Shown piece by piece: positions 1 to 9,728 of a stretch of 9,728 bases of DNA. The stretch is from CBDUXZ01 sp965371325 [NCBI: uncultured bacterium]. Its GTDB lineage: Bacteria > JAUYMQ01. The stretch spans positions 1-9,728 of the forward strand of contig CBDUXZ010000041.1 of the NCBI GenBank assembly GCA_965371325.1, given 5' to 3'. How positions within the stretch are numbered: position 1 is the stretch's first letter; every line of letters begins with the position of its first letter. The position numbers and the translations under genes were made by a program. The notes under the pieces were generated by a model that saw nothing but the letters and a program-made list of their open reading frames with translations, made no database searches and was not told where the DNA came from.

Positions 1-2180
1 CCTGCGGAGATCACCCTGTCCAGGCGCGCGCGCGCCTCCCCGGCCCTCCCGGCGTCCGACGCGAGCCCCGCCAGGGTTATCTCGGCCGCGCTGTTTTCCG
101 GCTCCAGCGCGAACGCCTGCGCCAGCCGCGCCCGGGCCTCTTCCGGGCGCCCCAGCTCCCTCAGGCTCCGCGCCAGCAGGACGTTGGCCCGCGGGTCTTC
201 CCGGTCGAGCGAGACCGCGAGCTGGAAGCGCCTGAGCGCGGCCTCCGGCTGTTCCAGCGCCTGGTAGATCAACCCGAGCATCAGGGCTGCCCGCCAGCGC
301 ATTTGCGTGTCTTCACCCTCAGAGGTCGCGGCCCTCTCCAGAAGGGCGCGGGCCCGCCCGAGATCGCCTACTTCCGCGCAGGCAATACCGAAGCTGACCT
401 GCGTAAAGATGAAATCGGGATTCGCCGCGAAGGCGCGCTCGTAATAGGGAATCGCTTCTCGGCCCGCCCCCCACTCATGGAGGGCATTCGCATAGTTCAG
501 GTGGCTCCGGTAGTGGACGGGCGGCCGTGCCAGCGCATCCTCCCAGAGTATCAGGGCGTTCTGCCAGACGCGCTGGCGCGCAAGGGTGAGGGAGGCATAG
601 CTCGCGAAGATCCCGACCAGAACCATCGCGGCCACCGCCCCCTGGGCGGGTGTGCGCAGTCTCCCGAGAAGGGCCACCGTGGCCAGTCCAGCGGCCGCCC
701 CGTAGCCGATGAGCGGTATCTGCAGATACCGGTCGGCCATGCGAATCCAGAAGGGCAGGATCTGCGCGACGGGGAGAAAGCCCAGCCAGAAAAGGGCCAT
801 CCACCAGAGGGAGCGGCGCGCCCCGAAAAAAGCCCGGAAGGCGGCCAGGGCGCCCGCGCCCAGGACGAGATAACCCGCCACGGACCAGGTGCTCAGAAGC
901 GAATCGGCGAAGGGAGGGACGTAGAGGGTGGACAGACCTGTCGGAAAAAGGAGGAGACGCGCGTATCGCGCGAAGATCCCGGCCACCGTTGCCAAATGGA
1001 GGGACAGGCTCCCCCCCATCCAATGCGGGCCCACGATTCCCAGTTCCGCCTGGGCCTGCACGTTCACCAGGGTGAAGAGAATGGCGGCACCCACGAAGGG
1101 GATCTTTTCGCGGATTATGCGCCAGAGCGGTTCGCGCCTGTAGCCGAGGTCATAGAGGAGCAGGACACCCGGCAGGATAACGGTGCTCATCTTGCTGAGC
1201 AGCGCCGCCACGAAGAGGATCAACGAGAGGAGCCGGCCGGCGCGCGAAGCGACGGATTCCCGTGTCGCGCGTATGTAAACGATGAAGGAGAGGAGGAGAA
1301 AAACGGTGGCGAGCAGCGCCTTGCGCTCGGAGATCCAGGCAACCGCTTCGACCTGCGCGGGGTGGGCGAGGTAGACCAGCGCCGCGATGCCCGCCGCAAG
1401 GGGCGGTGCGCGAAGCGCCAGGAGCAGCCATGCCACGAGGCCAGACGCGAGAGCGTGCAGAAAGAGATTCGTGAGGTGATAACCGAAGGGGTCGAGTCCC
1501 CAGACGGCATGATCGAGCGCGAACGATGCGAGGGTAAGCGGGGCGTAGTTCCCGCGAAACGGCTCGGTCCACCACGTCTTCACGGCCGGCCAAGCGAGCG
1601 ACTGTACCTGCTTGTTGTTGGTTATGTAGGTATCGTCGTCCCACAGATGAATGAAGTCGCTCCCGAGCGAGGGAAGGTAGAGAAGGAAAGCCAGGAGGGC
1701 GGCGCCAAGGGCCAGTAGCAGTTCGGTGCGGATGAAGCCCGCGGTGTCCGCCTGTACCGCTTCGCGCCGCCGCATGCCGCGGCGCGAGATCGCGTTCACG
1801 AAGAGGATCGCGAGGGCCGCGCCCGCGAAATCGAGCGCCAGATCACCAAGGGCCGGCGTCCGGCCCGGCACGAAGCCCTGGTGGTATTCGTCGCTGAGGG
1901 CAAAGGCGGCCACGGCGCCCAGGGTCCAGAAGGAGGGCCAGAGGCTCGCCGGAAAGGCCCGGTAGCCCCCCGCGAAGGCCAGGAGGACCAGGGCTGCGAG
2001 GCCGGCGTAGAGGGGAACGTGGGCGAGGTTTGCGAGCCAGGGGGGGATTTCCAGGGCCCCCAGGGCGGAGCCTGGCGTCCCGGAGAGGGCGAAGATGAGG
2101 GCGCCGTAGAGCAGGGAGAGGGAGGCCCAGAATGCGTGCTTTCCGCGGGCCACCGGGACCGCGCGCGAAGCGCTGCTCAT
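1..2180 (-). CDS. VanZ-like / TMTC-type GT-C transferase / TPR fusion protein (3' end outside window)
   Basis: One uninterrupted frame runs from ATG at 2180-2178 to the left edge (726 codons, no stop), so the C-terminus is missing. Residues ~15-130 resemble VanZ: a short helical membrane domain with NLAHVPLYAGL (51-61), SDEYHQGFVPGR (96-107) and an Asp at 113. From ~155 a second membrane part has TMTC/GT-C marks: WDDDTYITNN (180-189), GNYAPLT (210-216), YHLTN (234-238), HPAQVEAVAWISERK (273-287) and ADRYLQIP (482-489). About five TPR units follow from ~556. Bacterial proteins of this second type are putative polyprenyl-phosphate-sugar-dependent glycosyltransferases with the active site facing the periplasm; TPRs usually bind proteins. 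The start is set by GGGAGGAG upstream and directly abuts the TAG of the preceding epimerase gene. VanZ-like proteins recur in exosortase loci, but their role is unknown. The domain calls are firm; the acceptor substrate is unknown. Confidence 0.85.
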   Translation of the reverse strand, partial: MSSASRAVPVARGKHAFWASLSLLYGALIFALSGTPGSALGALEIPPWLANLAHVPLYAGLAALVLLAFAGGYRAFPASLWPSFWTLGAVAAFALSDEYHQGFVPGRTPALGDLALDFAGAALAILFVNAISRRGMRRREAVQADTAGFIRTELLLALGAALLAFLLYLPSLGSDFIHLWDDDTYITNNKQVQSLAWPAVKTWWTEPFRGNYAPLTLASFALDHAVWGLDPFGYHLTNLFLHALASGLVAWLLLALRAPPLAAGIAALVYLAHPAQVEAVAWISERKALLATVFLLLSFIVYIRATRESVASRAGRLLSLILFVAALLSKMSTVILPGVLLLYDLGYRREPLWRIIREKIPFVGAAILFTLVNVQAQAELGIVGPHWMGGSLSLHLATVAGIFARYARLLLFPTGLSTLYVPPFADSLLSTWSVAGYLVLGAGALAAFRAFFGARRSLWWMALFWLGFLPVAQILPFWIRMADRYLQIPLIGYGAAAGLATVALLGRLRTPAQGAVAAMVLVGIFASYASLTLARQRVWQNALILWEDALARPPVHYRSHLNYANALHEWGAGREAIPYYERAFAANPDFIFTQVSFGIACAEVGDLGRARALLERAATSEGEDTQMRWRAALMLGLIYQALEQPEAALRRFQLAVSLDREDPRANVLLARSLRELGRPEEARARLAQAFALEPENSAAEITLAGLASDAGRAGEARARLDRVISA

Positions 2181-3119
2181 CTAGGGCGCTCCTCCCGGGA
2201 GGAAGAAGGCCGCGGTGCGCTCGAGCCCCTCCCGCAGCCCTATGCCGGGCTCGTAGCCGAGGAGACGGTGGGCTTTCGAAATGTCCGCAAGGGAATGGCG
2301 CACGTCGCCCGCGCGTGGCGGGCCGTATTCGGCCGGGATATCGACCCCCAGAATGTCGCGCAGGTCAACCAGCAGCCTGTTCAGCGTTATCCTCCCCCCG
2401 CAGGCCACGTTGATGACTTCACCGACGGGCTCGCTTCGCTCGGCGGCAAGGAGGTTGGCGTCCACCACGTTGTCAATGTAGGTGAAGTCGCGGGACTGCT
2501 CGCCGTCCCCGAAAACCGTCGGCTTCTCGCCGCGGGCGAGTTGTGCGATGAACTTGGGGATTACCGCGGAGTAGAAGCTGGCGGGATCCTGCCGGGGACC
2601 GAATACGTTGAAGTAGCGGAGCACCACCGTCTCGAGTCCATAGAGGCGCGAGAACATGACGCAGTACAGCTCGCTGGCGTACTTCTGGAGGGCATAGGGC
2701 GAGAGCGGCGAAGGGGGCATCGTTTCGATCTTGGGAAGCGTGGGGGTATCTCCGTAGGCGGAGCTCGACGCCGCGTAAACCACCCGGCGAACCCCCGCGT
2801 CGCGTGCCGCGAGGAGAACATGGAGGGTCCCCTGCACGTTCACCGCGTTCGTGGAGACCGGGTCTTCGACCGAGCGAGCGACCGAAGGGAGAGCCGCCTC
2901 GTGGAAAACCCAGTCCATACCCTCCACCGCTCCGCGAACCACGTCCGGATCGCGCAGGTCGCCTTCGCGCAGATCGATTCGACCGGCGGCCTCGGCCAGG
3001 TTCTCCTTGCGGCCGGTGGAGAAGTCGTCGATGACGCGCACCGCGTGGCCGTGCTCGAGAAGCCGCGTCACGATGTGCGATCCGATAAACCCGCCCCCGC
3101 CGGTCACAAGCGCCTTCAT
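2181..3119 (-). CDS. NAD-dependent nucleotide-sugar 4-epimerase (extended SDR, WbpP/GalE-like)
   Basis: The protein has 312 residues, normal for an extended short-chain dehydrogenase/reductase. It begins MKALVTGGGGFIGSH, a Rossmann GxxGxxG NAD site at residues 6-13. The serine-rich strand is AASSSAYG (116-123), and the catalytic pair is Tyr142/Lys146 in SPYALQK. LRYFNVFGPRQDP (167-179) and FGDGEQSRDFTYIDNV (203-218) are typical of UDP-GlcNAc/UDP-Glc 4-epimerases and related enzymes, so it probably interconverts UDP-hexoses or UDP-N-acetylhexoses in the cytoplasm. Exact substrate cannot be read from sequence. The frame extends 31 codons upstream, but ATG at 3119 is chosen because it starts the Rossmann strand, has GGAGAG upstream, and forms an ATGA overlap with the galE stop, implying translational coupling. 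It is followed with no gap by the VanZ/TMTC/TPR gene. Confidence 0.88.
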   Translation of the reverse strand: MKALVTGGGGFIGSHIVTRLLEHGHAVRVIDDFSTGRKENLAEAAGRIDLREGDLRDPDVVRGAVEGMDWVFHEAALPSVARSVEDPVSTNAVNVQGTLHVLLAARDAGVRRVVYAASSSAYGDTPTLPKIETMPPSPLSPYALQKYASELYCVMFSRLYGLETVVLRYFNVFGPRQDPASFYSAVIPKFIAQLARGEKPTVFGDGEQSRDFTYIDNVVDANLLAAERSEPVGEVINVACGGRITLNRLLVDLRDILGVDIPAEYGPPRAGDVRHSLADISKAHRLLGYEPGIGLREGLERTAAFFLPGGAP

Positions 3120-4108
3120 GATCTGCTCTCCGCGTACCCCGCCGGATGAGTCTCCATCCACGCGGCCGCGTCCGCGATGATCTCCTCGATCGCGGGTTGC
3201 CGCGGCCGCCATCCCAGCTCGCGGCGCGCCCTCTCCGATCCCGCAACCAGGGTCGCGGGATCGCCTTCCCGACGCGGCCCTTCCTTTACCGGAACCTCCT
3301 TGCCCGTCACCTTGCCGACCGCCCCGAGCACCTCACGCACCGAGAACCCCCGCCCGGTACCGAGGTTCAGCGCCCCTCCCGGCCCGCCCGACTCGAGGGC
3401 TTCGAGCGCAAGCACATGCGCATCGGCAAGATCGCGGACGTGGATGTAGTCGCGCACGCAGGTTCCGTCCCGGGTGCGATAGTCGGTCCCGTAGATCTCG
3501 AGCGCGTCCCCCTCACCGCGGGCCGCGCGAAGCGCAAGCGGAACGAGATGCCGTTCCGGCCGGTGATCCTCCCCCCGGGCGGACGACGCCCCGGCTGCGT
3601 TGAAGTAACGAAGGGAGAGGGTCCGCCAGCCATAGGCGGCCGAAAAATCTTCGAGGGCCCGTTCGATGGCGGCCTTGGTTGCGCCGTAGGGATTGCCGGG
3701 GGCCAGAGGGGAATTCTCGGTCAGGGGAGCATCCCCCGTGCCGGCGTAGACGGATGCCGTCGAGGAGAAGATGAAACGCCTCACGCCGCACTCTTCCAGC
3801 ACGCCGAGCAGGCGGAGCGCCTCCAGAGTGTTGACGCGCCAGTAGAGCGCGGGGTCGGTCACGCTCTCACTCACCGTTGAGCGCGCCGCAAAATGCATCA
3901 CGGCGGTGACGCCGTGCTCCCGGATCAGGCCCTTCACCGCCCCCGCGTCGCCGACCCCGTTCTTCAGGAAAGGCGTGTCCGGAGGGACCGCGGCGCGATG
4001 CCCGGTGCTGAGATCGTCGAGGATGACCACGCGCCGTCCGCGGGCCACCAGGGCCTCCACGGCCACGCTGCCGATATAACCCGCTCCACCCGTAACGAGA
4101 ACGCTCAC
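3116..4108 (-). CDS. galE: UDP-glucose 4-epimerase GalE
   Basis: The 330-residue product matches GalE in length and motif order. It has VLVTGGAGYIGS at the N-terminus (NAD-binding GxxGxxG), DDLSTGH (31-37), the MHFAA strand (71-75), FSSTASVYAG (114-123) with the catalytic Ser/Thr position near 117, and NPYGATK with Tyr141 and Lys145. Next come LRYFNAAGA (166-174) and the GalE signature GTCVRDYIHVRDLADAH (215-231). The enzyme interconverts UDP-glucose and UDP-galactose, supplying galactose units for surface glycans. The frame is open for 17 codons further upstream into the GT2 gene. GTG at 4108 is preferred because the Rossmann strand starts there, AGGTAGGG lies upstream, and the gap to the GT2 stop is only 7 bases. 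Its TGA overlaps the next gene's ATG. A close relative acting on N-acetylated sugars cannot be excluded. Confidence 0.88.
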   Translation of the reverse strand: MSVLVTGGAGYIGSVAVEALVARGRRVVILDDLSTGHRAAVPPDTPFLKNGVGDAGAVKGLIREHGVTAVMHFAARSTVSESVTDPALYWRVNTLEALRLLGVLEECGVRRFIFSSTASVYAGTGDAPLTENSPLAPGNPYGATKAAIERALEDFSAAYGWRTLSLRYFNAAGASSARGEDHRPERHLVPLALRAARGEGDALEIYGTDYRTRDGTCVRDYIHVRDLADAHVLALEALESGGPGGALNLGTGRGFSVREVLGAVGKVTGKEVPVKEGPRREGDPATLVAGSERARRELGWRPRQPAIEEIIADAAAWMETHPAGYAESRS

Positions 4109-4115
4109 AGCAGCC

Positions 4116-4805
4116 CTACCTGGTGAAGAGTCCGTACTTGACGATGCACCAGATGGCAATGACGCCGTCCTTCCATCCGATTTTCTTCCCCTGCGAGTAG
4201 TCGCGGCCGCTGTAGCTGATCCCCACCTCGAAGATTCGGCAACCCAGCCGCGCCACCTTGGCGGTCACCTCGGGCTCGAAGCCGAACCGGTCCTGCTCCA
4301 GGTGGAGCTGCCGGATAATCTCCGTCCGGAACATCTTGTAGCAGGTCTCCATATCGGTGAGGTTCAGATTCGTAAAGCAATTGGAGAGCAGCGTCAGAAA
4401 GCGGTTGCCGAGGCTGTGCCAGAAGAGGAGCACACGGTGCTCCTTTCCCGAGACAAACCGCGATCCGTAAACCACATCGGCCTTCTTCTTCTCGATGGGA
4501 CGGAGAAGATCGAGCAGATCTTCCGGTTCGTACTCCAGATCGGCATCCTGAATGACGACCACTTCCCCCGTGACCCGCTCGAGCCCGGCGCGTACGGCGG
4601 CCCCCTTCCCGCGATTCCGCTTCTGGTAAACCACCTGCCCCAGCTTCCCTTCGATCTCGCTCTTGAGAATCTCGGGGGTTCCGTCGGTCGAGCCATCGTC
4701 AACCACGATGAGCTCAAGGTCGAGGGGCAGCGCGCGCACCCGGTTCACGATCTCCCGAATCGTGGCTTCTTCATTGTATACGGGGATGATGACCGAGAGC
4801 TTCAC
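4116..4805 (-). CDS. GT2 family glycosyltransferase, polyprenyl-phosphate sugar synthase (DPM1/GtrB-like)
   Basis: This 229-residue GT-A enzyme has SVIIPVYNEE (4-13), VVDDGSTDGT (34-43), KRNRGKGAAVRAG (62-74), the metal-binding QDADLEY (86-92), VYGSRF (112-117), DMETCYKMFR (151-160), FGFEPEV (174-180) and SGRDYSQGKKIGWKDG (199-214). These mark the dolichol-phosphate mannose/glucose synthase-like branch of GT2, which moves a sugar from a nucleotide donor to a polyprenyl phosphate at the cytoplasmic face. No C-terminal membrane helices are evident, so it resembles the soluble DPM1 form. The start is GTG at 4805, preceded by a strong purine run (4810-4820) containing GGAGGGAGGG. A 79-base gap separates it from epsI. 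The lipid-linked sugar it would make is the expected donor for the two GT-C-like proteins in the same operon, which is inference. The transferred sugar is unknown. Confidence 0.87.
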   Translation of the reverse strand: MKLSVIIPVYNEEATIREIVNRVRALPLDLELIVVDDGSTDGTPEILKSEIEGKLGQVVYQKRNRGKGAAVRAGLERVTGEVVVIQDADLEYEPEDLLDLLRPIEKKKADVVYGSRFVSGKEHRVLLFWHSLGNRFLTLLSNCFTNLNLTDMETCYKMFRTEIIRQLHLEQDRFGFEPEVTAKVARLGCRIFEVGISYSGRDYSQGKKIGWKDGVIAIWCIVKYGLFTR

Positions 4806-4884: not shown

Positions 4885-5559
4885 TCACAGTAAGCTCTCC
4901 TCGCGCATCTCGATGATCTCGCCGAAGATGGGGACGAGCGTGGCCGCGAAGCGCCTGAGCCGCTCCTCGTCCTCCCCCTCCGTGCCGGGATTTACCGCGG
5001 TCGCCACCTCGATGAACCCGTTCCCGCCTCCCTTCCCCGTCAGAATCTGGGTTTTCAGGGAGTCGAGCATTTGCCGGGTGCGGGAGGCCGTTTGATAGTT
5101 GTTCGAGGAGAACCACCAGTAGAGCACGATCTGCTTCTCCGCCCCCTTCTTCGCCAGGAAGCGGTTGGCGGAAACACTCGTCCCGGGCAGGGTCTGCTCC
5201 ACGGTGCCGGAGAGTTGCTCGTACTCGATGTTCCACCCCTGTGAGGTAAAGCAAACCTCCGGCTGATGGGCCCCCCAGCGGTTGGTGCCGTGAAACTGCG
5301 CGAAGACGAAGATCCTTCTCCCCTCCGTGTCCTCGTATTCACGGGAGATCAACGCGTCAGGCCTGAGGATATCGAGGACATACTGAGGCATCTGGATGTC
5401 TCCCAGGCTGACGTGGCCGGCCACCTTTTCCGGAAGGGATGCCAGATCGGGCGGGGCTTGCGCCTCGGGATTACGGAACTTGCCGATTCCCATGTTGGCG
5501 AGGCATGCCAGCGCCACCATGATGACTATCAGCCAGCCGTTTTTTCGTGTCGCCGCCAT
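4885..5559 (-). CDS. epsI: EpsI family protein, exosortase-associated
   Basis: The 224-residue product begins with a basic, hydrophobic signal-anchor (residues ~5-24, RKNGWLIVIMVALACLANMG), followed by a domain expected in the periplasm. The EpsI signature is clear: WGAHQPEVCFTSQGWNI (95-111), with the HxPExC core at His98, Pro100, Glu101 and Cys103. A second family mark is IVLYWWFSSNNY (144-155). EpsI proteins occur next to, or fused to, exosortases in exopolysaccharide loci; their biochemical role is not settled. Here the gene is separate from the exosortase, not the fused arrangement. It starts inside the exosortase coding end with a 31-base overlap, and GGAAGG lies 8 bases upstream of ATG 5559, so expression of the two is probably coupled. 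The conserved Cys is intact. Confidence 0.87.
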   Translation of the reverse strand: MAATRKNGWLIVIMVALACLANMGIGKFRNPEAQAPPDLASLPEKVAGHVSLGDIQMPQYVLDILRPDALISREYEDTEGRRIFVFAQFHGTNRWGAHQPEVCFTSQGWNIEYEQLSGTVEQTLPGTSVSANRFLAKKGAEKQIVLYWWFSSNNYQTASRTRQMLDSLKTQILTGKGGGNGFIEVATAVNPGTEGEDEERLRRFAATLVPIFGEIIEMREESLL

Positions 5560-6437
5560 TCCAGAAACCTTCCGATGCTGAAGAGGAGCGTGAACGCCAC
5601 CACGAAAACGCTGAAGCCCGAGAGATCGTGAATCAACGCGCTGGAATCGATCTCCCCCCTCGTATACCAGCCTTCGCCCGGGAGGGTGGCGTCAACCCCG
5701 AACTTGTAAGCCACAAGGGTAAGGAACGTTACCCGCACGTAATTCGCGGCGATCGCAATCGGAATTCCGATGAGAAAGAGCGATACACGCTCCCACGTCT
5801 TTCCCCAGAACAGGTAGGCGTAGACCGCCCCCAGGGCGAGCAGCGCGAAGAGGGAGCGGATGCCACTGCAGGCGTCAGCCACCTCCAGGACCCCGTTCGG
5901 GAGGTAGAGAATCGCGCCGTCACGGTAGATCGAGACCCCAAGGGCGGCAACCGTCGACGTGGCCATGCGTGCGGCGATGATTTTCATGGTGAAGGTGATG
6001 GGCGTGAGAATGAAGGTGAATATCGGAATCATGAAAACAAGGAAGGCGATCGGGAAGAGCACGAGCCTCAGCACGTGCCGCCCCCAGACGGCCAGGACGA
6101 TGCCGATGATCAGCGTGATCAGCGAATAACAGGCAAGGGTCTTGACCGCGCCGAGGTTCGCCAGCAGCAGAAGAACGAGGCTCCCCGCCGCGATCCAGAC
6201 GCCCGCCGACGAAGGCTCCTTCGGCGCGGCGGCGATCTGCTCCCTGCGTCTCCAGACGAGAAAGAGAGAGATAATCGGTATGAGATAGCCGTGGGAGAAC
6301 TCCGGCAGGCTGTCCCACTTCTCGACGAGGTACCCCACGAGTGGGAAGTAGAGGAAGAGAACCCCCGCCGCAATGAGCAGCAGCTCGGCCGGGGGCATTG
6401 TTACCACGCGGGCGCTCGTTCCGGTTTCGGCTCTCAC
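5529..6437 (-). CDS. Exosortase (EpsH-related transpeptidase-like membrane protease)
   Basis: The 302-residue protein is mostly membrane helices, and it has the full exosortase set: FSHGYLIPI (47-55), the nucleophile Cys190 in ADACSGIRSL (187-196), Arg235 in NYVRVTFL (232-239) and His270 in HDLSGF (270-275). Exosortases recognise a C-terminal tripartite tail (short motif, hydrophobic helix, basic cluster) on secreted proteins, cleave it, and probably pass the protein to a surface anchor. I cannot assign the subtype (XrtA, XrtD and so on). The start is GTG at 6437, with AAAGG at a good spacing, 6 bases after the TAA of the GT39-like gene. The in-frame ATG at 6398 has no ribosome-binding site and lies just before the first helix, so it is a less likely start. 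No substrate protein with such a tail is visible in the window. Confidence 0.9.
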   Translation of the reverse strand: MRAETGTSARVVTMPPAELLLIAAGVLFLYFPLVGYLVEKWDSLPEFSHGYLIPIISLFLVWRRREQIAAAPKEPSSAGVWIAAGSLVLLLLANLGAVKTLACYSLITLIIGIVLAVWGRHVLRLVLFPIAFLVFMIPIFTFILTPITFTMKIIAARMATSTVAALGVSIYRDGAILYLPNGVLEVADACSGIRSLFALLALGAVYAYLFWGKTWERVSLFLIGIPIAIAANYVRVTFLTLVAYKFGVDATLPGEGWYTRGEIDSSALIHDLSGFSVFVVAFTLLFSIGRFLEWRRHEKTAG

Positions 6438-6443
6438 TTGCGG

Positions 6444-7778
6444 TTACCTTTCTCTCACGGTCTCATCCCCGGTGGATGATTGGCTGCCAAAGCGCCTCCA
6501 GGCCCGGTCGGCCGCCACGACCGCGAACATCCAGAGGTAGGGCGAGATGGCGGATCTTGCCCGCGCGTCTCCCCAGAACACCAGCACGGAGAGGCAAAAT
6601 GTGCACACGAGCAGGTGAAGGATCACCTCCGGCCCATCGCGGCGGAAGGTCAGCACCATGCCGGCGACCATCCAGGGCAACGCCAGGCCATAGGTCAGGA
6701 AATATACGATCTTACGCGCCGTCGGAATATTGGCCCAGGGATTCCAGAACCGGGCGAACTTGAACATCAGGAGCTTCGGTACCTTTTCCGGATTGCTCGC
6801 CAGGAAGTTCAAGCCCAGCCGCCAGGCCCGCCTGTTGATCTCCACCTGATCGTACGCCACGGTCCGCAGCTCATCGTAAAAAGGGAGCTGCGCGAAATGA
6901 ACCCACCGGCCCCAGTGCTCCCCCTGCAGAACCCGGATATTGTTCGCACCCCAGAATGCGAGCCCCCCGCTGGTCGTCACGGGCACCCAGTGCCCGGTCT
7001 CTTCACGAAGGCGCATAATCCACGGGCCTGATACGAGAATCGCGGCGATCATTATAACAGAAACAGTAATGCCCACCGCCCGTATGTCCGCCCGATCGGC
7101 CTTGCGATAGGTCCACCAGGCCCAGAGCAGCAGGAAGGGCGGAAAGAGCAGAAGCACGGGGCGCGTGAGGGTGGCCGCGCCCATCGCCGCGCCCGTGTAC
7201 AAAAGCCAAGGCAGGCTCACGCCCCCGCCGGCCGGGCGCGTCCCCCCGTGCGCCGCGAGCGCGGCGGCGCGGGCATCTCCGAGGCGGACGAACCCGTAAA
7301 TCATCGCCGCAACCAGGGGAATGAAAAGCGTTTCGCTCAGGAGCCCGTGGAAGAAGAAGACGTCTGCTGGGGCAAGGGCGAACAGGGCCGCCGCCGCGAG
7401 GCCGCAGCGCTCGCCGAAGAGGCGCCGGCCGATCAGAAACGCGAGCCAGGCTGCAAGCGCCCCCAGGGCCGCCTGAGCGATGCGCGCCGCCGTGTAGTCG
7501 TGCCCCGCGACCCGGTAAACGACTGAAAGGAACGCCGGGTAGAGCGGCGGACGGAACGAGATGAAGGTGTCCTGAAACCTGTAGCCCCCTCCCTCCGAAA
7601 GGCTGACCGCGAGCCGATCATAATCACGGTCGTCGGCGACGGGCGGCGCGTCGAGGCCCAGCAGAGCGCTCGCCACCAGCCGTGCGGCGAAGGCCAGAAC
7701 GACGACGGCGGGCACGAGAATGCGGCGGTGTCGCCCGAGACCGTCCCGGCTATCCGGAACAAGACCCTCACCTCGCAT
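6444..7778 (-). CDS. GT39/ArnT-like polytopic membrane glycosyltransferase
   Basis: The 444-residue protein has many membrane helices (first at ~20-41; others near 100-117, 125-162, 190-221, 235-252, 357-400). The GT-C acidic motif is in the first loop, PVADDRDYDRLA (46-57), followed by FRPPLYPAFLS (75-85), LSETLFIPL (147-155) and LTRPVLLLFPP (204-214). These patterns fit PMT/ArnT-type enzymes, which take a sugar from a polyprenyl phosphate and move it to a protein or lipid acceptor at the periplasmic face. The C-terminal WGDARARSAISPYLW (402-416) corresponds to the usual late RY.LP region but is diverged. The frame also has a TTG two codons earlier; ATG 7778 is preferred because GAGGAG is 8 bases upstream of it and only 2 from the TTG. 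It lies six bases upstream of the exosortase gene. Donor and acceptor are unknown. Confidence 0.82.
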   Translation of the reverse strand: MRGEGLVPDSRDGLGRHRRILVPAVVVLAFAARLVASALLGLDAPPVADDRDYDRLAVSLSEGGGYRFQDTFISFRPPLYPAFLSVVYRVAGHDYTAARIAQAALGALAAWLAFLIGRRLFGERCGLAAAALFALAPADVFFFHGLLSETLFIPLVAAMIYGFVRLGDARAAALAAHGGTRPAGGGVSLPWLLYTGAAMGAATLTRPVLLLFPPFLLLWAWWTYRKADRADIRAVGITVSVIMIAAILVSGPWIMRLREETGHWVPVTTSGGLAFWGANNIRVLQGEHWGRWVHFAQLPFYDELRTVAYDQVEINRRAWRLGLNFLASNPEKVPKLLMFKFARFWNPWANIPTARKIVYFLTYGLALPWMVAGMVLTFRRDGPEVILHLLVCTFCLSVLVFWGDARARSAISPYLWMFAVVAADRAWRRFGSQSSTGDETVRER

Positions 7779-7786
7779 TGTCAAAG

Positions 7787-7859: not shown

Positions 7860-8149
7860 TCACCCGCCCCCCAGCCGGCGCGGAAGCCCCGCCTTGACGA
7901 GATGCCGGGGCGCCCTTTCCACGAGATCGCGCCAAAGGCCGTAGCGCTTCAAAAAGCAGTAGAGCGTGGGGGAGACAACAAGCGGATAGAGGGCGGACTT
8001 GAGAAGAACGCGGCCCGCAGCACGAGATAGGCCCCACCAGAGAAGAAGGGGAAGAGGAGATCGCGCAGCATCTTCGCGCTGCCGTTCACCATGGGTGGAA
8101 GGCGGGCGAAAACGACGATCACCCCTTCCGCCGTCGGGAGCGCCGTCAT
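7860..8149 (-). pseudogene. Small unrecognised gene, apparently split by a -1 frameshift
   Basis: ATG at 8149 forms an ATGA overlap with the stop of the upstream epimerase, exactly the coupling used elsewhere in this operon. The frame reads MTALPTAEGVIVVFARLPP and PMVNGSAKMLRDLLFPFF, then loses plausible coding character and stops at 7949. The overlapping -1 frame has no start codon of its own after 8149, but its second half looks like real protein: GRVLLKSALYPLVVSPTLY, then CFLKRYGLWRDLVERAPRHL, ending with TGA at 7860. The whole span is 290 bases, one short of 97 codons. This fits a single ~96-residue product with one base lost near 8000-8035, where the coding-like signal changes frame. I do not recognise the family; it contains one moderately hydrophobic stretch. 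It may be a degraded gene, a sequencing error or, less likely, programmed frameshifting (no classic slippery heptamer seen). Confidence 0.45.
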
Positions 8150-9261
8150 TTCGTGAGCCCCCGTTTCTCCAGCTCCTCCTTCGCCCGCATAACGGCGTCA
8201 TCGGCCAGCTGCGTCCGCACCCATCGCACCAACTCCTCGATTCCATCCTTGAAGGCGACCTTCGGAGACCAGCCGAGCAGGCGCTTTGCACGCGAAACGT
8301 CGGCGTAGCAGTGGCGGATGTCGCCCGCGCGGAATTTCTCCTCGATCTTCGGCGCGTTCTTGAACTCGAGCTTCGTGGAGAGCACCCGGGCAAGATCAAG
8401 CACGGAGACGGGACAGCCCGTGCCCAGGTTGAGCACCTCGCCGTTGACGCCCCCGGCCTCCATCGCCGCCATGAGGCCAGAGACAATGTCGGACACATGG
8501 ATGAAGTCGCGGCTCTGAAGCCCATCCTCGAAGATGACCGGCGCATGGCCGTTCAGAAGGCGTGAAGAGAAAATCGCAGCGACGCCCGTGTAGGGGTTCG
8601 AGAGGGCCTGCCGGGGCCCGTAGATGTTGAAGAAGCGAAGCGCGGTCGTGGTGATCCCGTAGGCGTGCCCCACGGCGAGGAACAACTCCTCGTGATCGCG
8701 CTTCGTGACGGCGTACACGGAGGTCGGAAAGAGCGGCTTCTCCTCGTCCGTGGGGACCGCCCGAACTGTGCTACCGCATCGCGGACAGCGCATCTCCCAG
8801 TCGCGGGCAGCGAGCTGGGCATCGGGCCTCAGGCGGGGGAAGACCGGCCCGCAGGCCTCGCACTGGTACTTCCCTTCGCCGTAGCAGGACATGCTCGAGG
8901 CCACGATCAGCTTTCGCACGGCGTGTTTCTCGTTGGCGAGCAGATCGAGCAGGACGGCTCCACCCAGGGTATTCACCTCCACGTAGCGGGCGATGTCGTA
9001 CATGGACTGGCCGACACCCACGGCGGCGGCGAGATGGAAGACGACCTCCATCCCGTCGAGGGTCTTTCTGAGGACGTCCCGGTCGCGAACGTCGCCTCGG
9101 ATAAACTCCGCCGAAGGATTGAGATAATCCGGCGGACGGCTCTCGGGGTGCACCTGCGGATCGAGATTGTCGAGGATCCGGACCTGGTGGCCCGCTGTAA
9201 CGAGCGCGTCAACGAGGTGGGAGCCGACGAAGCCCGCCCCGCCCGTCACAAGAATTTGCAT
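8146..9261 (-). CDS. NAD-dependent epimerase/dehydratase with a four-cysteine (zinc-ribbon-like) insert
   Basis: The 371-residue extended SDR enzyme starts MQILVTGGAGFVGSH (NAD site 6-13). It has FHLAAAVGVGQS (75-86), SSMSCYGEG (122-130), Tyr183/Lys187 in TSVYAVTKRDHEEL, LRFFNIYGPRQALSNPYTG (208-226), and FEDGLQSRDFIHVSD (244-258). Between the serine strand and the YxxxK motif there is an insert with CEAC (134-137) and CPRC (159-162), two CxxC knuckles expected to bind a metal. This insert is known in a subgroup of sugar epimerases, including enzymes annotated as dTDP-L-rhamnose 4-epimerase-like, so rhamnose-type substrates are possible but unproven. ATG 9261 is preferred over the preceding TTG because AAGGAG lies 5 bases upstream. 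Its TGA overlaps the ATG of the small frameshifted ORF. It appears to be the first complete gene of the operon, behind a 375-base leader. Confidence 0.87.
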   Translation of the reverse strand: MQILVTGGAGFVGSHLVDALVTAGHQVRILDNLDPQVHPESRPPDYLNPSAEFIRGDVRDRDVLRKTLDGMEVVFHLAAAVGVGQSMYDIARYVEVNTLGGAVLLDLLANEKHAVRKLIVASSMSCYGEGKYQCEACGPVFPRLRPDAQLAARDWEMRCPRCGSTVRAVPTDEEKPLFPTSVYAVTKRDHEELFLAVGHAYGITTTALRFFNIYGPRQALSNPYTGVAAIFSSRLLNGHAPVIFEDGLQSRDFIHVSDIVSGLMAAMEAGGVNGEVLNLGTGCPVSVLDLARVLSTKLEFKNAPKIEEKFRAGDIRHCYADVSRAKRLLGWSPKVAFKDGIEELVRWVRTQLADDAVMRAKEELEKRGLTK

Positions 9262-9266
9262 CAAGA

Positions 9267-9280: not shown

Positions 9281-9538
9281 CCGGGAGAGACACTCTCGGC
9301 GTTCAGTGCGGCAACCTAGCAACAGGATCGGTTCGGCAGCAAGGATATTCTACCCGCTTTCGCCGCGGCCTTCCCGTATGCTTCCCCTCCCGGTAGACAC
9401 TCTGAGCCTGGAGAATTCTCGCACAATCCGGGCACCAGGAGGAGAAGCATACGACTCCGCTCAACCATGGCGGATAAGTGTCTAAATGAACCGGACCATC
9501 TCTGCGGAGGGAACGGACCCGGGATCGAAACACTCTCC
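9281..9538 (+). repeat. Three copies of a short CCGG-spacer-ACACTCT motif
   Basis: Copies read CCGGGAGAGACACTCTC (9281-9297), CCCGGTAGACACTCTGA (9389-9405) and CCCGGGATCGAAACACTCTC (9518-9537). The related GTGTCTA at 9478-9484 is a partial copy in the opposite orientation. They are confined to the gap before the epimerase gene and could be protein-binding sites, but the motif is short and degenerate. Confidence 0.3.
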
Positions 9539-9630
9539 GTTTCGGGGACATGGGGCTGGTCTCCAAAATAAGGAGAAACTCTACCGAAGCGCCCGTCTTC
9601 AGGCCCGAAGTTATAATTCGCCACCCACAC
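9316..9630 (-). CDS. Possible small ORF of unknown function
   Basis: A GTG at 9630 is preceded by GGGAGG, which overlaps the stop of the upstream glycosyltransferase gene at a reasonable 9-base spacing. The 104-residue frame starts VWVANYNFGPEDGRFGRV and its first ~50 residues have a protein-like composition. The later part is poor in coding features, uses less GC at third positions than the neighbours, and overlaps the long inverted repeat. I recognise no domain. It could be a decayed gene start or chance. Confidence 0.22.
   Translation of the reverse strand: MWVANYNFGPEDGRFGRVSPYFGDQPHVPETESVSIPGPFPPQRWSGSFRHLSAMVERSRMLLLLVPGLCENSPGSECLPGGEAYGKAAAKAGRISLLPNRSCC
9374..9454 (-). promoter_or_regulatory. 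Long RNA hairpin candidate in the epimerase leader
   Basis: CGTATGCTTCCCCTCCCGGT (9375-9394) and ACCAGGAGGAGAAGCATACG (9434-9453) are inverted repeats matching at 18 of 20 positions. In a minus-strand transcript both mismatches become G-U wobbles, and one further wobble pair can be added at each end, giving a continuous 22-pair stem around a 37-base loop. On the plus strand the same two positions would be C-A mismatches. One arm carries CUCCUCC and the other GGGAGGGG, so a Shine-Dalgarno-like purine run is sequestered. No U-run follows, so it is not a standard terminator. It could be a leader regulatory element, an mRNA-stability element or a small palindromic mobile remnant. Confidence 0.5.
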
Positions 9631-9636
9631 GTTCGG

Positions 9637-9728
9637 TTACCTCCCTGGTGTCGGCGCTTTGTCCATGACGTCTCGATAGAGATTCTCAACGCGCCGTCGG
9701 TGCGTCTCCTCGCTATATTTTTCTTCCG
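9637..9728 (-). CDS. C-terminal tail of a probable glycosyltransferase (5' end outside window)
   Basis: Only 29 residues are present: EEKYSEETHRRRVENLYRDV, then MDKAPTPGR and TAA at 9639-9637. The charged, helical ending with a late LYRDV resembles the tails of GT4-type glycosyltransferases, and the neighbourhood is glycan synthesis. The fragment has no catalytic motif, so the family is inferred from context and tail character only. It is the gene just before the 375-base gap and shares the operon orientation. Confidence 0.45.
   Translation of the reverse strand, partial: EEKYSEETHRRRVENLYRDVMDKAPTPGR

Follow-up and report, generated by a model that had tools for sequence, protein, structure and literature searches.

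The role of the VanZ domain is unsettled. According to the available text of PMC7146870, VanZ was shown to reduce lipoglycopeptide binding, and a 2025 analysis, in the part of its text that was available, predicts that VanZ domains act on outer-leaflet lipid head groups, those of polyprenyl-phosphate carriers included, a statement that stands as a prediction only (PMC12419801). The locus described here offers one clue. The window, by which we mean the whole stretch of DNA analysed (9,728 nucleotides; contig CBDUXZ010000041.1 of assembly GCA_965371325.1, from an uncultured bacterium), carries a gene in which a VanZ domain is joined to a probable glycosyltransferase core and to a TPR arm. Fusion to a probable polyprenyl-phosphate-sugar transferase, with a GT2 enzyme encoded in the same operon, points at the class of substrate on which VanZ may act, and makes the head-group prediction directly testable in one protein.

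Three modules in one open reading frame

The frame begins with an ATG at position 2180 and, in the list of open frames, runs to the window edge at position 3 without a stop. From the N to the C terminus its product comprises a VanZ domain, a TMTC-like membrane core and five TPR units (Table 1). A single frame with three modules is what the first-pass annotation of this DNA, which left the strand unstated, had described, and the 726 stop-free codons on the minus strand bear it out. The same annotation had proposed a profile check of the translated frame, with mixed results: VanZ and TPR models match, but the GT-C core matches no model in Pfam. AlphaFold models of the whole protein (2 sequences) and of the core (4 sequences) were poor in the membrane part (mean pLDDT of the two models, 46 and 41).

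Table 1. Features of the window, with profile scores against model cut-offs and protein identity to the relative L001 where available
Feature	Position	Strand	Basis or remark
VanZ–GT-C–TPR fusion gene	3..2180	minus	726 codons in window; C terminus beyond window edge
VanZ domain, residues 16-132, read as four helices	1785..2135	minus	PF04892, NF037970
VanZ signature DEYHQGFVPGR, residues 97-107	1860..1892	minus	With H54, D113 and D117, the predicted lipocone site
Arg-rich linker, residues 133-153	1722..1784	minus	6 K/R of 21; likewise 6 in L001
TMTC-like GT-C membrane core, residues 154-533	582..1721	minus	Motif table, hhalign, relatives
First core loop, WDDD...NYAPLT motif, residues 180-216	1533..1643	minus	Motif alignment
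Five TPR helix pairs, residues 557-725	6..512	minus	Pfam TPR models, AlphaFold, Foldseek
NAD-dependent sugar epimerase	2181..3119	minus	PF01370; 82% in L001; stop codon abuts ATG of the fusion
GalE-type UDP-glucose 4-epimerase	3116..4108	minus	TIGR01179, 373.4 bits against 262.3; 73% in L001
GT2, polyprenyl-phosphate-sugar synthase-like	4116..4805	minus	PF00535; 82% in L001
EpsI (DUF3485)	4885..5559	minus	TIGR02914, 61.3 bits against 42.8; 72% in L001
Exosortase	5529..6437	minus	PF09721, 222.8 bits; TIGR02602, 180.8 against 105.55; 78% in L001
Second GT-C protein (PMT_2)	6444..7784	minus	PF13231, 46.5 bits against 26.1; 67% in L001

The fusion at a second locus

Genome contigs were scanned with six short peptide patterns for residues 1-560; the 28 pattern matches yielded one relative, on a contig from a Deltaproteobacteria metagenome-assembled genome (MAG), referred to here as L001. 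The L001 fusion (9677-12064, 796 aa) has the same architecture. The two proteins are 57% identical over residues 14-726 (713 residues), in an alignment that spans both junctions and has no gap in the linker between VanZ and the GT-C core. Identity is 59% over the VanZ plus GT-C part and 61% within the VanZ domain, and the neighbouring genes, from the epimerase to the second GT-C protein, are matched in L001 as well (Table 1).

In the first-pass annotation two doubts had been raised about the fusion, namely that a sequencing error near 1720-1760 had joined two genes, and that the fusion might be absent from all related genomes. The sequencing error was rejected, given the same join in L001, and the one relative that was found does have the fusion. 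Because L001 carries the same fusion through both junctions and within the same operon, a frameshift or a misjoin is very unlikely and we take the fusion to be real. As for an artefact of any kind, in which a sequencing error or a misassembly merged separate genes, its probability is virtually nil: the same fusion and operon order occur on a separate public contig, and the G+C content by codon position is alike in the VanZ, GT-C and TPR parts and in the adjoining genes.

The VanZ domain and its predicted lipocone site

The N-terminal module is recognised by two profile models. Pfam VanZ (PF04892) matches residues 49-129 with 37.5 bits, against a cut-off of 30.1, and covers model positions 56-123 of 126; the L001 fusion scores 36.2 bits against the same cut-off. 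NCBIfam vanZ_1 (NF037970) matches residues 50-121 with 50.1 bits against a cut-off of 20. The VanZ signature SDEYHQGFVPGR occupies residues 96-107, and its residues 97-107 are the same in L001 but for Y/F and G/R. A VanZ-like domain with its signature, as first annotated, is confirmed. Hydropathy places three of the four helices (16-34, 52-70 and 114-132), and a low-confidence AlphaFold model places helices at 11-33, 47-70, 78-101 and 111-139, the third of these being the one missed by hydropathy. A search of PDB sequences with the VanZ part returned chance-level matches only.

In the available text of the 2025 eLife analysis, VanZ domains are grouped with the phosphatidylserine synthases and the TelC toxin in a lipocone superfamily, whose site is defined as His, Glu and Asp residues across helices 2, 3 and 4 (PMC12419801). 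When placed by eye, the site of the VanZ-2 family, with His in helix 2, Glu in helix 3 and Asp in helix 4, would correspond to H54, E98 and D113/D117 in both the window and L001. H54, E98, Q101, D113, D117 and the PGR of the signature are identical in the two VanZ domains, and the DxxxD of VanZ-2 helix 4 is present in both as D113LALD117. The RKxxH of VanZ-2 helix 2 was not found, the corresponding residues being ANLAH in the window and FNLAH in L001. The domain is thus similar to the VanZ-1 and VanZ-2 lipocone proteins, as these are described in the available text, in its four helices, its His/Glu/Asp site and the DxxxD of its last helix, and unlike them in being joined to a GT-C core. Fusions of VanZ are many and varied in that text, with TPR among the fusion partners listed for VanZ and Skillet-3 (PMC12419801).

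It had been suggested on first annotation that VanZ handles the lipid carrier. This idea agrees with the lipocone prediction as given in the available part of PMC12419801, and also fits the presence in the operon of a GT2 resembling polyprenyl-phosphate-sugar synthases.

Kinship of the membrane core

The identity of the core is less readily assigned. Residues 144-540 have zero matches in Pfam even at E 10, the DUF1736 (PF08409) and GT-C models included. The core had no match in the PDB sequence search, and Foldseek gave none at E 0.001 for a core model taken from low-confidence AlphaFold predictions (4 sequences). In L001's genome, which is a fragmented MAG, eight places match a query made of VanZ plus core, the fusion included; five of the other seven core proteins were aligned and are 31-38% identical to the core of the window. 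The VanZ domain of the fusion is the only one found in that fragmented genome.

A motif alignment was made from seven bacterial core sequences (the window, L001 and L010-L014) and two from phage contigs (L021 and L022), with no TMTC protein among them. Two of the TMTC-type features, the DD of the first lumenal loop (M1) and the C-terminal TPR repeats, are present in the fusion. The first-loop DD, which in the window reads WDDD, and the lysine of an SK pair are kept in all seven bacterial sequences, and HPxxVE and ADRY are found in the window, L001 and most of the others (HPIHTE and AERT in L014; AERY in L012). Modelling of TMTC proteins, as reported in the available text of PMC7801869, assigns metal binding to the Glu of motif M4 and the Asp of motif M5. 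The Glu that follows the conserved Lys (M4) is replaced in the window (SKM), in L001 (SKL) and in L010-L013, and kept as KE in L014, L021 and L022. At M5, by our own placement, LSTLY or LSILY stands where L014, L021 and L022 have Asp, although in L001 and L011 an Asp follows two positions later.

L014 stands apart in another respect: among six other proteins it is the sole one with weak matches to TMTC_DUF1736 (20.4 bits against a cut-off of 27) and PMT. Of the six aligned core proteins in L001's genome, it alone keeps the TMTC-type Glu after Lys.

Further indication of kinship comes from the second GT-C protein of the operon. A profile built from nine core sequences was compared by hhalign with this PMT_2 protein, and gave a probability of 60.6 (E 8.3e-5) over 143 columns, in an alignment that pairs NYAPLT with FRPPLYP and covers part of the core. 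The exosortase, used as a control against the core profile, reached 0.4. L014 alone, compared with the PMT_2 protein pair, gave no match (0.2). A tentative kinship of the core with the GT-C proteins has moderate support from its TMTC-like order of motifs together with this moderate profile match, and to this extent the first-pass description of a TMTC-like GT-C core holds. Its stricter form, that of a TMTC-type protein proper, is not supported, given the absent M4 Glu, the M5 Asp absent as placed, and the absent DUF1736 match.

The comparison with TMTC1-4, the eukaryotic O-mannosyltransferases, shows both sides. Like them, the fusion has a membrane core followed by TPRs, the latter predicted on the side of the lumen or periplasm, and it shares the first-loop DD, Y-x-P, the conserved Lys and a [DE]R near the last loop, these motifs being those of the available text of PMC7801869. 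Unlike them, it is a bacterial protein encoded within an exosortase operon and has an N-terminal VanZ domain, and it lacks the M4 Glu, the M5 Asp as placed and a DUF1736 match in Pfam.

TPR arm and membrane topology

The C-terminal module is modelled with a pLDDT of about 70-95 from residue 561 on. Several Pfam TPR models match between residues 563 and 724, and the five modelled helix pairs agree with the first-pass count of at least five TPR units. In a Foldseek search the model resembled the TPR domains of O-GlcNAc transferase (OGT), MamA and YrrB.

The arginine-rich linker between VanZ and the core provides an indication of topology. When four VanZ helices are counted, the positive-inside rule suggests that the linker is cytoplasmic, and the VanZ signature, the first GT-C loop and the TPRs would therefore all lie on the periplasmic side. 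This orientation depends on the third VanZ helix: hydropathy labelling without it puts the linker outside, and the sides are reversed once the helix from the weak model is added.

The operon and its exosortase setting

The genes that accompany the fusion include an exosortase and EpsI in the same operon, and the exosortase setting assigned on first annotation is thus supported. An assignment of the exosortase as XrtA was rejected, its score with TIGR03109 (184.4) being under the cut-off of 208. As in known exosortase/EpsI (PEP-CTERM) loci, exosortase and EpsI are found with glycan genes, and PEP-CTERM domains are present in L001's genome; the position of the window exosortase below the XrtA cut-off is a difference from such loci. 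In L001's genome 14 of 19 PEP-CTERM matches exceed the cut-off of PF07589, against none in 14 control genomes. With the NCBIfam model, 19 of 22 matches are over the cut-off, which was also passed in two of the 14 controls. The same genome contains an exosortase and a second, partial exosortase match. Next after the operon in L001 come genes for a histidine kinase and for a response regulator of the sigma-54 type; these are distinct genes and score below the PrsK and PrsR cut-offs. A PrsT match in L001 (449.5 against a cut-off of 312.2) was given no weight because this protein is above the cut-offs of MamA and PilW TPR models as well.

For the GT2 of the operon, the best matches among solved structures were dolichol-phosphate-mannose (DPM) synthase and ArnC. 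The weaker matches included sll0501, which, like the first two, is an enzyme that charges polyprenyl phosphate. The second GT-C protein was without a match in the PDB sequence search. The start of GalE was placed from its match to L001.

Other features lie elsewhere in the window. On the minus strand, at 7863-8101, about 37 residues resemble the start of an L001 glycosyltransferase (51%, E 1e-4), presumably a GT4, and abutting them in another frame are about 50 residues that resemble the end of the L001 flippase (50%). From this relic, the window locus seems to have lost by deletion a glycosyltransferase and a flippase that are both long in L001. The first epimerase (8146-9264, minus strand) has a zinc-ribbon-like insert with CxxC pairs at residues 133-168, inside the epimerase fold, for which the zinc-ribbon matches in Pfam are weak and below the cut-off. 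At 9303-9728, also on the minus strand, an open frame of 141 codons leaves the window upstream of the operon.

VanZ near exosortases elsewhere

It had also been stated on first annotation that exosortase loci commonly contain VanZ-like proteins, and for this we found no support, in a sample too small to speak against it. Six of 29 exosortase-bearing plasmid records were analysed, and a profile search over the whole of these six records detected VanZ in two. No annotated VanZ was found in the exosortase flanks of the six records (15 kb or to the record end, the gene table being incomplete). In one of the two, a Haematobacter plasmid, VanZ is located ~42 kb from xrtD. In the other, pPfer1 of Paludibaculum fermentans, the VanZ and EpsI genes are ~3 kb apart, and the distance to the exosortase, measured round the circle, is ~14 kb. 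This VanZ protein (L061, 11380-12549) is encoded next to a flippase gene. It resembles the present case in having VanZ with an EpsI gene nearby and an exosortase on the same record, and differs in its size (389 aa), in having one VanZ match over the cut-off plus a weak second, and in being annotated as VanZ family only.

No paper naming VanZ together with exosortase or with PEP-CTERM was found in the literature search. VanZ has no occurrence in the available text of PMC1569441, which described the exosortase/PEP-CTERM system, and exosortase, PEP-CTERM and GT-C have none in the main text of PMC12419801. Fusions of VanZ, with TPR among the partners, were thus known already (PMC12419801, available text), as were TPR-bearing GT-C proteins; no instance of VanZ combined with a GT-C core inside an exosortase operon came up in the literature searched or by these terms in the main text of PMC12419801.

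A possible role for the fusion and its alternatives

The modules of the protein, their order, the intact VanZ motifs and the occurrence of fusion and operon at a second locus are observed features, and it is from these that we infer each chemical step that follows. With somewhat less than an even chance of being right, we tentatively propose that the protein is a transferase of the inner membrane, encoded in an exosortase-linked operon for a glycan or glycoprotein, and that it has a built-in VanZ domain that processes the carrier. According to this proposal, and judging from its family, the GT2 would act in the cytoplasm, charging undecaprenyl phosphate with a sugar that GalE and the epimerases supply. 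Once the loaded carrier has been flipped, its sugar would be transferred at the periplasmic face by the TMTC-like GT-C core, and there the TPR arm may hold the acceptor, most likely sorted surface proteins, PEP-CTERM proteins for instance, or the partners in their assembly. VanZ, its site facing the same side, would process the phosphate head group of the carrier in line with the published lipocone prediction, for example by clearing spent or unused lipid-linked sugar and so coupling carrier turnover to transfer. A donor from the GT2, an acceptor on the TPR arm and carrier processing by VanZ would together be the most economical reading of the locus.

This transferase model is supported because L001 shares both fusion and operon with the window (protein identities of 57-82%), and because the VanZ site residues are intact and match the lipocone His/Glu/Asp. 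It is further supported because the GT2 resembles DPM synthase and ArnC and the TPR arm resembles that of OGT, and because L001's genome has an exosortase together with the 14 PEP-CTERM matches over the cut-off. The topology suggested by the linker, in which VanZ signature, first GT-C loop and TPRs would share the periplasmic side, is in its favour too. Against it count the negative Pfam GT-C and PDB searches with the core, the H2 motif that departs from RKxxH, and the finding of a single relative. The strongest point against it, read from the motif alignment, is the absent metal ligand: without the M4 Glu and, by our placement, the M5 Asp, catalysis may differ from that of TMTC proteins or be lost. 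If it were lost, the core could be an acceptor-binding part or scaffold devoid of transferase activity, VanZ being the sole enzyme and the TPR arm organising the assembly of EPS. The division of the M4 column, in which L014 and both phage proteins keep what the other sequences have replaced, would favour such an arrangement, as would the similar division at M5, with the reservation of the nearby Asp in L001 and L011. We nevertheless consider an inactive core unlikely, since the first-loop DD and the SK lysine persist in every bacterial sequence aligned, HPxxVE and ADRY persist in most, and the degree of identity to L001 over VanZ plus GT-C argues for retained function. Moreover, metal ligands vary among GT-C enzymes.

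Other readings place the uncertainty in VanZ rather than in the core. VanZ might be a regulator or sensor, in that a ligand of the TPR or GT-C part controls the head-group activity of VanZ, or in that VanZ senses carrier-bound precursors and gates the transferase, either way making no product of its own in a distinct step. In the available text of PMC12419801, fusions of VanZ and Skillet-3 to extracellular ligand-binding domains, TPR included, are read as signalling, and the kinase and response regulator that follow the operon in L001 would be in keeping with this. However, these two are encoded apart from the fusion and fall short of the PrsK and PrsR cut-offs, and VanZ is joined to what is probably an enzyme working on the same class of lipid; for these reasons we judge a regulatory VanZ improbable. 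That VanZ serves to insert or position the protein in the membrane, kept for folding or oligomerisation and with no chemistry of its own, seems to us very doubtful. Experiments on VanZ enzymology were not met in the literature searched, where the shown effect is the reduced lipoglycopeptide binding (PMC7146870, available text), but the window and L001 agree at every predicted site residue while sharing only the 61% identity over the VanZ domain given above.

Returning to the transferase model, one may speculate further on a 'transfer and recycle' enzyme, in which a surface protein bound by the periplasmic TPR arm receives its sugar from undecaprenyl phosphate through the GT-C core, and VanZ cleaves or exchanges the phosphate head group of the carrier. 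This narrower version is possible, if on the unlikely side. Should it be true, VanZ chemistry would be coupled in cis to a glycosyltransferase and dedicated to exosortase-sorted proteins. If the fusion is indeed a transferase, glycosylation and exosortase sorting would become parts of a single pathway.

Related proteins on mobile elements

Scans of plasmids gave one weak GT-C match, and none with the VanZ query or the second GT-C protein. Scans of viral contigs gave nothing beyond the two phage loci included in the motif alignment. The L022 protein had no match in INPHARED, and neither phage protein had one in PHROG at E 0.001. Each of the two contigs, from uncultured phages, encodes a short, TPR-less, TMTC-like GT-C protein (L021, 2917-3846, 309 aa; L022, 4911-5990, 359 aa), in which the KE and Asp motifs are present and ND replaces the first-loop DD. 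Both genes are located some 0.7-0.8 kb downstream of a gene for a P22-type coat protein, and it is possible that they represent a glycosyltransferase within the virion gene module.
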